Assembly: GCF_026712205.1 (NCBI RefSeq)
Contig: NZ_JAPPUW010000015.1
Location: 1-64,000 of the forward strand
DNA length: 64,000 bases
Origin: Pelomonas aquatica
GTDB taxonomy: Bacteria > Pseudomonadota > Gammaproteobacteria > Burkholderiales > Burkholderiaceae_C
Direction: 5' to 3'
In this document: positions 25,705-44,600 of the stretch, piece after piece
Position numbering within the stretch: the first letter of the stretch is position 1
How the letters are laid out: every line of letters starts with the position of its first letter
Program-made: the position numbers and the translations under genes
The notes under the pieces: model-generated
Told to the model about the DNA's origin: nothing
The model's database searches: none
What the model saw: only the letters and a program-made list of their open reading frames with translations

Positions 25705-27968
25705 ATGCCCCAGCGCACGCTCACGCTCGGTCTCCTCTGGCTTGCCATGGCGGCGCTGCTGGCGCTGCTGGCCCTGCTGCTGAGCCTGCGCGGCAGCGGC
25801 GGCGGCCTGGCCCTCGACGCCGCGCTGGCTCTCGACCTGGCCCTGCTGCCGCTGCCGCTGCTGTGCGCCGTCGCGCTGCGCCGCCACGAGGCGGCCCAGG
25901 CCCTGGCCCGGACCCGCTTCCTGGCCCGGATCAACCACCAGATCCGCACGCCGATGAACGCGATCATGGGCATGACCCAGCTCGCGCTGCAGACGCCGTT
26001 GAGCCCCGAGCAGCGCGAGCTGCTGACCCGGGCCGACGCCGCCTCGCGCGGCCTGCTCGGCATCGTCGGCGACGCGCTGGACGTGGCCCGGATCGAGGCC
26101 GGCCAGCTGGAGATCGCGGCCCTGCCGCTGCGGCTGGAGGAAGTCGTGGCCCAGGCCATCGAGCCGGTGCGGCGCATGCACGACAACCCGTCCGTCGCCC
26201 TCATCTGCGACTGGGCCGACGCCAGCCTGCTGGGCGAGCGCGGCCAGCTGCGCGGCGACGCGCAGCGCCTGCAGCAGGTGCTCGTCAAGCTGCTGTCCAA
26301 CGCGCTCAGGTTCACGCCGTCGGGCCAGGTCTCGCTGCGCCTGGCCGCCGGGCCGACCGACGCCTCGGGACGCGTGCCCCTCGCCATTGCCGTCAGCGAC
26401 AGCGGCGTGGGCATGAGCGCCGAGCAGGTCGCCGGGCTGCTGCAGGGCCACGGCGACGCGGGCCTCGGCCTCGCCGTCACGCGCCACCTCGTCGAGCTGA
26501 TGGGCGGCAGCCTGGCCCTGCAGAGCGCGCCCGGGCGCGGCAGCGCCGTCGAGATCCGCCTGGCCCTGCCGCTGGAGGCCGGCAGCGCGCCGGCGCCGCT
26601 GCCGGCCCGGCGCGTGCTGATCGCCCAGGCCTGCGCCGGCGGCCGCGCGGCCACGCTGGCCCTGCTGCGCCATCTCGGCCTGGGCGACGAGCTGGCCGCG
26701 AGCGCCGACGTCGCCGGCACGCTGGCCGCGCTGGACGGGGCCCGCCGGGCCGGCAACGCCTTCGACTGGCTGCTGCTGGACTGGCAGCTGCCCGGCCCCG
26801 GCCCGACCGGTGCCGAGCTGCTCGCCCAGCTGCGCCGCGAACACCCGGCGCTGCGCGTCGCCGTGCTGAGCCCGCCCGGCCAGCCCGGCCAGCCCGACGG
26901 CCCGGCCCAGGCGCGCGCCTTCGGCGCCCGCGCGCTGTGCCCCGAGCCGCCGCTGCCCGGCGAACTGCGCCGCCTGTTCGGCGACGCCGCCGCCGAGCGC
27001 AGCGCCCCGGCCGACGGCCAGGCCCTGGCCGGGCTGCGCGTGCTGCTCGTCGAGGACCACCCCGTCAACCAGGAGATCGCGCTGCGCCTGCTCGGCAGCC
27101 GCGGCGCCCGGGTCGACGTGGCCGGCAACGGCCAGGAGGGGCTGGAGCGCCTGGTGGCACACGGCCCTGCGGCCTACGACCTCGTGCTGATGGACCTGCA
27201 GATGCCCGTGCTCGACGGCCTCGGCGCCACCCGGCGGCTGCGCAAGCTGGCCGGCTTCGAGGCCCTGCCCGTGCTGGCGATGACGGCCCATGCGCTGCCC
27301 GAGGAGCGCGCCGAATGCCTGGCCGCCGGCATGCAGGGCCATATCGCCAAGCCGCTGGACGTGGCCCGGCTGGTGCGCGAGCTGCAGCGCTACCTGCCGC
27401 CCCCGCCGCCGCCGCAGGCGCCCGCCCGCTTGCTGGACATGGGCGTCGGCCTGCGCCAGTTCGGCGGCCAGACGGCGCTGTACCGCCGCACGCTGCAGAG
27501 CTTTGCCGGCCAGTACGCCGACGGCCTCGCGGCCTGGTCAGGCTGGCTGGCCGGCGGCGAATGGGGCGAGCTGCGCCGCGCCGCCCACACGCTGCAGGGC
27601 CTGGCGGCCACGCTGGGTGCCCAGCCGCTGCACCGCCTGGCACTGGCCCTGGAGCGCAGCGCGCTGGAAGCCGACGCGGCGGCGGCCGGCAGCCAGTTGG
27701 GCCGCGTGGAGGCCGCGCTGGCCGCGCTGCTCGGCGACATCCGCGCGGTGCTGGCCCGCGACGACGACGGCGCCGCAGCGTCCGCCGGCGGGCCGGGCGA
27801 CCTGGCTGAACTGCGCCGGCTGCTCAGCCAGAGCGACAGCCGCGCCCTCGACTGGTGGCAGGCCCACGGCGCACACAGCGGCCTGGACGCCGCCACCATG
27901 CAGCGCCTGGAGCAAGCTCTGGCCGTGCTGGACTTCGACGCCGCCGCCGCGCTGCTGGAAGCCGCCTG

Positions 27969-41707: not shown

Positions 41708-43295
<1,588 letters not shown>

Positions 43296-43326
43296 ACGCG
43301 CGCGGCACTGGCCAGTCTCCATTGAA

Positions 43327-43346
43327 TACTGTATAAATCAACAGTA
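43327..43346 (+). promoter_or_regulatory. LexA (SOS) box within a larger inverted repeat
   Basis: TACTGTATAAATCAACAGTA contains CTGT-N8-ACAG and matches the E. coli consensus TACTGTATATATATACAGTA at 17 of 20 positions. The palindrome extends outward: GTCTCCATTGAA on the left pairs with TTCAAT...ATGGAGAC on the right, apart from a 4-base insertion. TATAAA inside the box could be a -10 element, so LexA would cover the promoter. The only rightward frame is the 26-codon ORF 22 bases downstream. Confidence 0.8.
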
Positions 43347-43367
43347 TTCAATGAATGGAGACCGGCC

Positions 43368-43448
43368 ATGTACAGCCAATACCGCCAGAACTACGTCCCC
43401 GGCCGCCCGCTGCCCCAGTGGCTGCAGCGGCTGCTGAGATGGCTCTGA
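43368..43448 (+). CDS. Putative SOS-controlled 26-residue peptide
   Basis: ATG 43368 to TGA 43446-43448 encodes 26 residues that begin MYSQYRQNYV and end QWLQRLLRWL. GGAG at 43357-43360 is a good ribosome site, 7 bases from the ATG. The N-terminal half is rich in Tyr, Gln and Arg, a PGRPLP turn follows, and the last ten residues would form an amphipathic, cationic helix with three Trp/Leu-rich faces. I do not recognise it. The LexA box directly upstream suggests induction by DNA damage. It lies between argG and the convergent murB, ending 4 bases before the murB stop. Confidence 0.6.
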   Translation: MYSQYRQNYVPGRPLPQWLQRLLRWL

Positions 43449-43452
43449 GGGC

Positions 43453-44526
43453 TCAGACCACCACCGGCTCCGGCTCCAGCCGGATGCCGAAGCGCCCGTA
43501 GACGCTCTCCTGGATGGCCCGCGCCAGCGTGACGACCTCGGCGCCGCGCGCGTCGGCCTTGTTCACGAGCACCAGGGCCTGCTTCTCGTAGACCGCGGCG
43601 CCGCCCACGGCCTTGCCCTTCCAGCCGCAGGCATCGATCATCCAGCCGGCCGCCAGCTTCACGCTGCCGTCCGGCATGGGGTAGTGCACGATGCCGGGGT
43701 CGCGGCCGATGATGTCCTTGCACTGCTCGGCCGTGACGACCGGGTTCTTGAAGAAGCTGCCCGCATTGCCGATGACGGCCGGGTCGGGCAGCTTGGCCCG
43801 GCGCACCGCGCAGATCCAGTCGAAGATCTGGCGTGCATCGGGCGCCGCGATGCCCGTCTCGGCCATCTTGCGCTCGATCTCGAGATAACCCAGCACCGGC
43901 CGCCAGGGCCTGGGCAGCCTCAGCCTCACCTTGGTGATGACGCTCTTGCCGGCCAGGCCGCCGAAGTCGCCGTGCTTGAAGACGCTGTCGCGGTAGCCGA
44001 AGCGGCAGACCTGCGCCGGCAGCAGCGCCGGCCTGCCGGTGACGAGGTCCATCACCTCCACCGCCTCCAGCCTGTCCTTGAGCTCGATGCCGTAGGCACC
44101 GATGTTCTGCACCGGTGCCGCCCCCACGGTGCCGGGGATCAGCGCCATGTTTTCCAGCCCCGGGTAGCCCTGGTCCAGCGTCCAGCAGACCAGGTCGTGC
44201 CAGACGACGCCGGCGCCGGCCTCGACGATCCAGGCGTCGTCGCGCGCCTCCAACAGCCGGATGCCGGCGATTTCCACCTTCAGCACGACGGCGTCGATGT
44301 CCTTCGTCAGCACGAGGTTGCTGCCGCCGCCGAGCACGAACTTGGGCGCCCGGCCCAGCTCCGGGTGGTCGACGACGCGGCGCACGTCTGCCGCCTCGCG
44401 GATGCGCACCAGGCGGCGGGCGACGGCCGGCAGCGCGAAGGTGTTGTAGGGCTTGAGATTGACGTCGGTCTCGATGGCAAGACTGGCGGGCACTCTGTTC
44501 GAGGGGGGATGGGCACTGGCAGACAT
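43453..44526 (-). CDS. murB: UDP-N-acetylenolpyruvoylglucosamine reductase
   Basis: A 357-residue flavoenzyme of peptidoglycan synthesis. It reduces the enolpyruvyl group to lactyl, giving UDP-MurNAc. Visible blocks are [22 protein letters not shown] (FAD site), [24 protein letters not shown], the Tyr-containing FGYRDSVFK and [12 protein letters not shown] (catalytic Ser). Near the end, [28 protein letters not shown] is typical of type I MurB. I chose ATG 44526 (MSASAHPPS); a Met 11 codons upstream is less likely. Confidence 0.95.
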
Positions 44527-44600
44527 GGGACACTTTTGGGCGCCTTGCGCGGCGCGCAAGCGGCAAAATTTTCGCAGACCCTCACATCCCCCGAATTCAC

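Follow-up and report, generated by a model that had tools for sequence, protein, structure and literature searches.

A conserved 26-codon gene behind a predicted LexA box, a probable SOS-controlled peptide gene of Pelomonas aquatica and related bacteria

We found that the short gap between argG and murB in the window (the whole 64,000-nucleotide stretch of Pelomonas aquatica DNA that was analysed) very probably holds a genuine coding gene of 26 codons under LexA control, as judged from sequence comparisons within the genus and beyond. In the scheme that we favour, LexA bound to a box that overlaps the promoter would keep this gene silent; upon DNA damage, LexA would be cleaved and RNA initiated close to the right-hand end of the box would be translated into the 26-residue peptide. 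The N-terminal core of this peptide, RQ-x-Y-x-P...P-x-W, would be extended and would probably dock on one protein partner, and its short cationic Trp/Leu amphipathic C-terminal helix would probably lie on the inner membrane or in a groove of the partner. The peptide would brake growth or division temporarily while the SOS response lasts. A further layer is proposed for Roseateles, in which argG and the box are 33 bp apart: RNA reading through from argG would have its ribosome-binding site masked by an outer inverted repeat, and RNA from the LexA promoter would leave this site open. We give this explanation as a whole, an SOS gene with a LexA-covered promoter and a product that brakes growth or division, a probability of about one half. 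The features of the locus are as follows.

41979..43295, + strand: argG (argininosuccinate synthase), NCBIfam NF003779 (E 6e-261) and TIGR00032 (E 4.8e-155); the ORF is open from 41922, so the start is provisional
43309..43323 / 43354..43368, + strand: outer inverted repeat with 15-nt arms (93%), from repeat search and folding
43309..43314, + strand: putative -35 element TGGCCA, read from the sequence, also within the outer inverted repeat
43320..43332 / 43341..43353, no strand: inner inverted repeat with perfect 13-bp arms and an 8-nt loop, holding the box; from repeat search
43329..43344, no strand: predicted LexA box CTGTATAAATCAACAG, a consensus match with exact CTGT-N8-ACAG
43332..43337, + strand: putative -10 element TATAAA, read from the sequence, in the left half of the LexA box
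43357..43360, + strand: Shine-Dalgarno sequence GGAG, 7 nt before the ATG at 43368
43368..43448, + strand: 26-codon peptide gene MYSQYRQNYVPGRPLPQWLQRLLRWL, an ORF conserved in relatives (stop codon 43446-43448)
43453..44559, - strand: murB, NCBIfam NF000755 (E 1.1e-132); start provisional

The peptide gene thus lies downstream of argG on the same strand, and the convergent murB has its stop codon 4 bp past the stop of the peptide. The initial annotation had described a GGAG Shine-Dalgarno sequence and a 26-codon ORF behind the box, flanked by argG, ending upstream, and by convergent murB; the coordinates given above bear out the former and the NCBIfam matches the latter. GGAG or a variant of it precedes the start in other loci of the peptide family as well. 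TGGCCA and TATAAA are spaced by 17 nt and read towards the ORF, and CTGTATAAA is found on the ORF strand in 19 of the 20 genus loci. It is plausible from the sequence that they form a promoter which bound LexA would cover, with transcription beginning near the right-hand end of the box; a strict scan for sigma-70 consensus promoters, whose rules demand a T at position 6 of the -10 element, scored none here.

A tblastn search with the window peptide alone matched all 19 sampled genomes of the same genus over 26/26 residues, at 69–85% identity and without stops, and an exact CTGT-N8-ACAG lies upstream in 20/20 genus loci, starting 36–40 bp before the ATG. The tblastn check set beforehand, that operator and ORF should recur as a unit, was borne out in 20/20 same-genus genomes and in many other genera. 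The anticipated bias towards synonymous substitutions was also found: among 19 distinct sequences, pN/pS was 0.416 in frame, compared to 1.00 and 1.60 for the two shifted forward frames and 0.71–1.66 for the antisense ones, and none of 200 column shuffles gave a value as low (minimum 0.48). Twelve of the 26 residues are invariant across the genus copies, and a nucleotide identity of 0.86 within the ORF gives way to 0.44 over the 60 nt that follow it. The low in-frame pN/pS, this drop in identity and the stop-free copies thus mark the ORF as a protein-coding gene under purifying selection. Taken at the sequence level, the conservation of the unit and the selection on its codons support the original proposal of an unannotated peptide gene under SOS control. 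In 14 of the 20 genus loci the gene sits between argG upstream and murB downstream; in the other six it is found elsewhere.

The properties of the product were computed for 113 distinct family peptides of 24–36 aa (the longer readings L081, L151 and G201 were left out). Tryptophan is the next to last residue in 110 of them, the last residue is L, F or C throughout, and the net charge ranges from +1 to +7, mostly from +3 to +6. The 11-residue tail of the window peptide, PQWLQRLLRWL, has a helical moment of 0.82, compared to 0.39 for its shuffles (p 0.0025), so the cationic amphipathic C-terminal tail described earlier holds for this peptide; across the 113 peptides the mean tail moment is 0.58 versus 0.36 for shuffles, with 43 individually at p<0.05. 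The best 15-residue Kyte-Doolittle mean in the whole set is 0.67 and the median of the best windows is -0.21, so no transmembrane helix is expected from hydropathy. In the alignment of 65 peptides, which were partly chosen by the RQ-x-Y-x-P motif and by a scan that required the box, the core residues R, Q, Y, P, P and W are invariant; they are less strictly kept in the wider alignment. (The 65 are the 66 distinct peptides minus L081, whose tail runs on, and L151, whose start lies inside the box, plus L026.) A core as strict as RQ-x-Y-x-P points to a specific partner. A structure model of a 32-residue member has an extended N-terminus and a helix at residues 23–31 (mean pLDDT 75.1, pTM 0.26; about 87–89 in the modelled C-terminal helix blocks), a picture that is consistent with the above but weak. 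Searches of the family members against NCBIfam gave no match at E≤1; the best Pfam match among the 65 members (E 0.006, to Mso1_Sec1_bdg, in 10/65) was judged spurious; and a PHROG search with three peptides gave, for one of them, a single match to an entry without an assigned function (E 0.038).

The brake role during the SOS response is a tentative reading of these sequences. It is favoured because the box should keep the gene silent until damage occurs, because the gene is autonomous and tiny, and because the argG-locus group apparently has a safeguard against leaky translation, as would befit a costly product. A weaker point is that SulA was not found in this genome or in the other two genomes of the taxonomic family within a 100-genome sample of the order, in which 23 genomes pass the cut-off. 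We rate about equally an SOS peptide that, instead of being a membrane or division brake, serves as a soluble modulator of a DNA-damage protein (RecA, a translesion polymerase, a nuclease or the clamp). The strictest conservation falls in the non-helical core R-Q-x-Y-x-P...P-x-W, which fits a protein-binding linear motif, and no membrane-spanning stretch is expected; however, a Trp-rich cationic tail right at the stop codon is equally typical of peptides that lie on the membrane surface, and Pfam and NCBIfam place the peptide in no known family. The boldest version of the brake reading, in which a new family of soluble, non-transmembrane SOS peptides with the core RQ-x-Y-x-P...P-x-W-L-x-R-x-W-x-W-[L/F] would be a DNA-damage checkpoint that replaces SulA in many Burkholderiales, with a read-through-proof translation lock in Roseateles, appears unlikely to hold in full.

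Whichever role the peptide has, the control that we propose depends on the box. The 20-mer at 43327-43346 agrees with the Escherichia coli LexA consensus TACTGTATATATATACAGTA at 17/20 positions, the top score in the window on both strands, and the exact CTGT-N8-ACAG occurs only once in the 64 kb. The near-consensus SOS operator of the initial annotation therefore stands, as does its position at the centre of a longer inverted repeat, whose 13-bp arms are perfect. When the window was scanned with a slight variant of the LexA consensus string, no match with up to three mismatches was obtained. Genome-wide (5.12 Mb), there are 22 exact sites, compared to 10 for the reversed control pattern, so that only ~0.0002 sites would be expected in the 73-bp gap between argG and the ATG. 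The box begins 33 bp after the argG stop and ends 23 bp before the ORF.

The box might instead be bound by another repressor, which would place the gene outside the SOS regulon; binding of the box by LexA is, after all, a prediction. We consider this improbable. A protein search of the host genome gave a single LexA match, and the lexA promoter carries a box, CTGGACAAAAATACAG, with one mismatch, that begins 80 bp ahead of the matched LexA domain. The box of the recA promoter, CTGTACAAACATACAG, ends 36 bp before the ATG of an ORF that we take, by eye, to be recA. Two features of the LexA/SOS regulon of beta- and gamma-Proteobacteria are thus present, namely a CTGT-N8-ACAG box near or overlapping a promoter (the overlap being with the TATAAA read by eye) and a host LexA of matching specificity, the lexA and recA boxes being alike. 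CTGT-N8-ACAG is the motif described for most beta- and gamma-Proteobacteria in the available parts of two reports on LexA (PMC3108266, PMC3323433), which further argues against another repressor.

Two other sites of this kind were seen in genome G000. An exact CTGT-N8-ACAG at C5:42855-42870 (L065) lies ~100 bp before an ORF that looks, by eye, like mraZ, the head of the division/cell-wall cluster; it could be due to chance or to an SOS link. At C53:42265-42280 (L068), a palindromic LexA-like sequence, TGTACTGTAATTTAGTACAGTACA, is found 146 bp before an ORF that resembles, again by eye, an integrase gene.

In read-through RNA, the arms of the outer repeat would allow the -35 region to base-pair with the Shine-Dalgarno sequence. 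In the window, the hairpin has a z score of -4.93, and the computed probability that the Shine-Dalgarno sequence is unpaired is 0.01 in read-through RNA versus 0.51 in RNA from the putative start point. With 40 shuffles per sequence, the left flank significantly masked the Shine-Dalgarno sequence in seven of the 19 genus sequences, each of which is at the argG locus, and in 2 of 53 sequences from other genera. In the 13 argG-locus sequences, pairing of an arm with its own counterpart was stronger (mean -21.1 kcal/mol) than with swapped arms (-16.6 kcal/mol), a preference reached in 0 of 20000 permutations, whereas the six genus sequences away from argG had no such preference (4705 of 20000 permutations were as good). 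Own arms also beat swapped arms in the 53 non-genus sequences, in a test that retains a shared G+C bias. Changes on both sides of a pair in the alignment give a modest signal (five compensatory pairs, with 49 of 500 shuffles as high); for the covariation score, 3 of 500 shuffles were as high. A hairpin that hides the ribosome-binding site throughout the family was rejected, as only two of the 53 non-genus sequences were significant and the argG-locus Roseateles group alone supports it. For that group, these sequences make it plausible that a local lock acts against argG read-through. Besides the repeat that holds the box, the window has a single perfect 13-bp inverted repeat with a loop of 3–20 nt, at 25978 (19-nt loop).

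The strong hairpin of the window and the own-arm preference of the argG-locus group are also what one would expect if the conserved element were a regulatory RNA or hairpin, for example of the argG 3' end, with an incidental ORF. The constraint on the ORF is at the protein level, on which ground the incidental ORF was rejected; moreover, the peptide and its box are kept away from argG in 6/20 genus loci and in other genera, where hiding of the Shine-Dalgarno sequence is rare. An Rfam scan gave only microRNA models far under their cut-offs and one weak sRNA match at 43610-43748, and a scan for terminator-like sites found none at the locus. We regard the RNA explanation as slightly less credible still than another repressor.

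Outside the genus, the reach of the window peptide as a query is short: tblastn matched 70 of 100 relatives at E≤10, the best beyond the genus having E 0.014, and nearly all matches beyond the genus are chance, the genome G032 being a true relative among them. A profile built from the genus alone matched 64 of the 399 taxonomic-family genomes at E≤0.05, mostly partially; the matches that we examined, besides the genus copies, were the five that covered the whole model (G269, G399, G446, G441 and G202). These five and the G032 locus all lie behind a box, which is perfect in five cases and has one mismatch in G269. A scan of 84,980 species for the box together with the peptide motif returned 88 stretches. 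Family peptides make up 81 of them, six are unrelated (Cyclobacterium, Paenibacillus, a Clostridia MAG, two Sulfurimonas and Blautia) and one (L160) is in neither group. The records with family peptides are titled Rubrivivax, Roseateles, Pelomonas, Rhizobacter, Piscinibacter, Paucibacter, Inhella, Azohydromonas, Aquabacterium, Albitalea, Schlegelella and others; one (L135, JAIPCJ010000049.1) is titled Methylotenera sp. MAG, probably wrongly.

A profile search matched 99 of the 399 taxonomic-family genomes at E≤0.05. With a broader profile, 88 of the same genomes were matched at E≤0.01, in 43 of 141 genera, and 79 at E≤0.001, in 36 genera, the latter including one match that is probably false (G033); the alignment rows of this profile were earlier matches in the same genomes, so these E-values are partly by construction. 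Most of the profile relatives share RQ-x-Y-x-P...P-x-W-L...W-x-W-[L/F]-stop. Outside the taxonomic family nothing convincing was found in 40 and 399 genomes of the order and 175 of the class: tblastn of the window peptide in the 40 gave weak matches only; a strict pattern found only its own genome among the 399, 12 of them family members including that genome, and this pattern is insensitive, missing the true member G149; and the profile, in the 175, found its own genome and three weak partial matches, of which the one inspected had neither a start nor a box.

Some genomes carry two or three copies of the family, namely Rubrivivax sp. D4_MAG_00017 (L085 and L144) and G290, G373 and G124 (loci L191, L213, L224, L226, L227, L234 and L238). 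The three copies in G124 are without a good LexA box; the conserved tryptophan of their P-x-W is replaced by F, and they perhaps represent a paralogue freed from SOS control. In L026, where the box ends 160 bp before the peptide, a 78-codon ORF (MSWLFRPWRRASGSYRF...; 1589-1825, + strand) directly follows the peptide gene and is possibly on the same SOS transcript.

SOS control is common among mobile elements, and a prophage or plasmid gene that has come under the control of the host SOS system might look much the same. Such an origin is very improbable here, as the window peptide was unmatched in 72,556 plasmid and 50,697 phage records, the one pattern match in viral contigs is in DNA that does not read as a family peptide, and the neighbours argG and murB in 14/20 genus genomes are housekeeping genes.

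The link between box and peptide holds across genera. In 82 profile loci from 78 genomes, a perfect box was found within 80 bp in 57 and within 220 bp in 59, and a box with at most one mismatch within 220 bp in 75; the corresponding figures for 5802 control ATGs in the same loci were 0.12%, 0.22% and 3.6%. Since part of the profile came from the scan that required the box, we counted separately the 58 loci from outside that scan (including that of the window): a perfect box lies within 80 bp in 34 of them and within 220 bp in 36, and 51 have one with at most one mismatch within 220 bp. These counts leave out G178, in which an ATG start was not found and a one-mismatch box lies upstream, and the unrelated second matches in G032 and G269; G033, probably false, was kept. 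Two or three box mismatches were seen in G428, G162 and G201, in all three of the divergent G124 copies and in G033, itself doubtful. A subgroup with peptides ending in PAPALLRRIWAWF has CTGA-N8-ACAG boxes and a core without RQ. Tandem LexA-type boxes upstream of the peptide were seen in Rhizobacter, Albitalea and one Pelomonas (L079, L099, L115, L123 and L019), which suggests tighter repression.

We found no conserved neighbour or partner gene: outside the argG-murB block no cluster of ORFs occurs in more than 12 of 148 loci, a set that counts some places twice and in which some recurring ORFs are shadow ORFs. As the neighbours vary, the heritable unit appears to be the box plus the peptide. 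Short ORFs abound, with 64 of 20 aa or more overlapping the 6 kb around the locus, but a chance LexA-like palindrome beside a random short ORF is refuted by the retention of both in 19/19 genus genomes and by the perfect boxes within 80 bp in the 34/58 loci just mentioned, and we give it almost no weight.

Among the known SOS products, SidA of Caulobacter, YneA of Bacillus and SosA of Staphylococcus are each small membrane-bound division inhibitors. Like the peptide gene described here, they are small, lineage-restricted SOS products, and they are the model for the brake reading; unlike them, the peptide family is without a transmembrane stretch or a credible match in Pfam or NCBIfam. A small size and membrane attachment are given as typical of the known SOS division inhibitors in the accessible portion of one report (PMC6051672). 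SulA (PF03846), with its SOS-induced block of division, is a possible functional counterpart, whereas homology to it was rejected, as the SulA profile had no match at E≤1 among the 65 family members.

According to the part of PMC8145889 seen, TisB is a very short LexA-induced peptide whose action is to depolarise the inner membrane; it forms part of the tisB/istR-1 toxin-antitoxin pair. The initial annotation had likened the window peptide to TisB. The comparison stands with respect to circuit logic and size, both being very short genes of LexA type below the size used in gene calling, and fails with respect to the membrane span: judged by hydropathy, the hydrophobic membrane-spanning helix of TisB and DinQ is not expected in any of the 113 family peptides, for which no similarity to a known family was recognised, and homology to TisB was rejected. 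Nor was an antitoxin identified from the sequence, in which only 33 bp separate the argG stop from the box and 4 bp the peptide stop from that of murB. DinQ of E. coli is described, in the section of PMC3567139 at hand, as a LexA-controlled 27-aa peptide with a single transmembrane segment whose translation is restricted at the RNA level, through the antisense agrB and RNA processing. It is similar to the window peptide in length, in LexA-type control and in a possible limit on translation at the RNA level; in the latter this limit, if real, would come from an inverted repeat in cis and be confined to one group.

The SOS core of beta-Proteobacteria, as listed in the consulted part of PMC3323433, comprises lexA, recA, dinB/polB, uvrA and imuA-imuB-dnaE2. 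The same part describes hypA and hypB as hypothetical genes with predicted LexA regulation, hypA being without homologues outside multi-chromosome beta-Proteobacteria and hypB found only in Burkholderia. As described there, they resemble our gene in being lineage-specific extras of the beta-proteobacterial SOS regulon; from their descriptions, rather than their sequences, either is unlikely to be the window peptide. A literature search, with bioRxiv and most subscription papers outside its reach, gave no report of the peptide or of six short family strings.

Thus, the peptide gene appears to behave like tisB, dinQ and sidA in its circuit logic and differs from them in the membrane span of its product, and no family library names it. 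SOS regulons beyond that of E. coli include lineage-specific genes that gene callers can miss, and the window peptide is a case in point, being too short for usual annotation and yet tied to a LexA box in many genera. It is likely to be a new part of the DNA-damage response in related bacteria and a candidate for how these bacteria may pause growth or division after DNA damage, and its motif offers a handle for finding the target.
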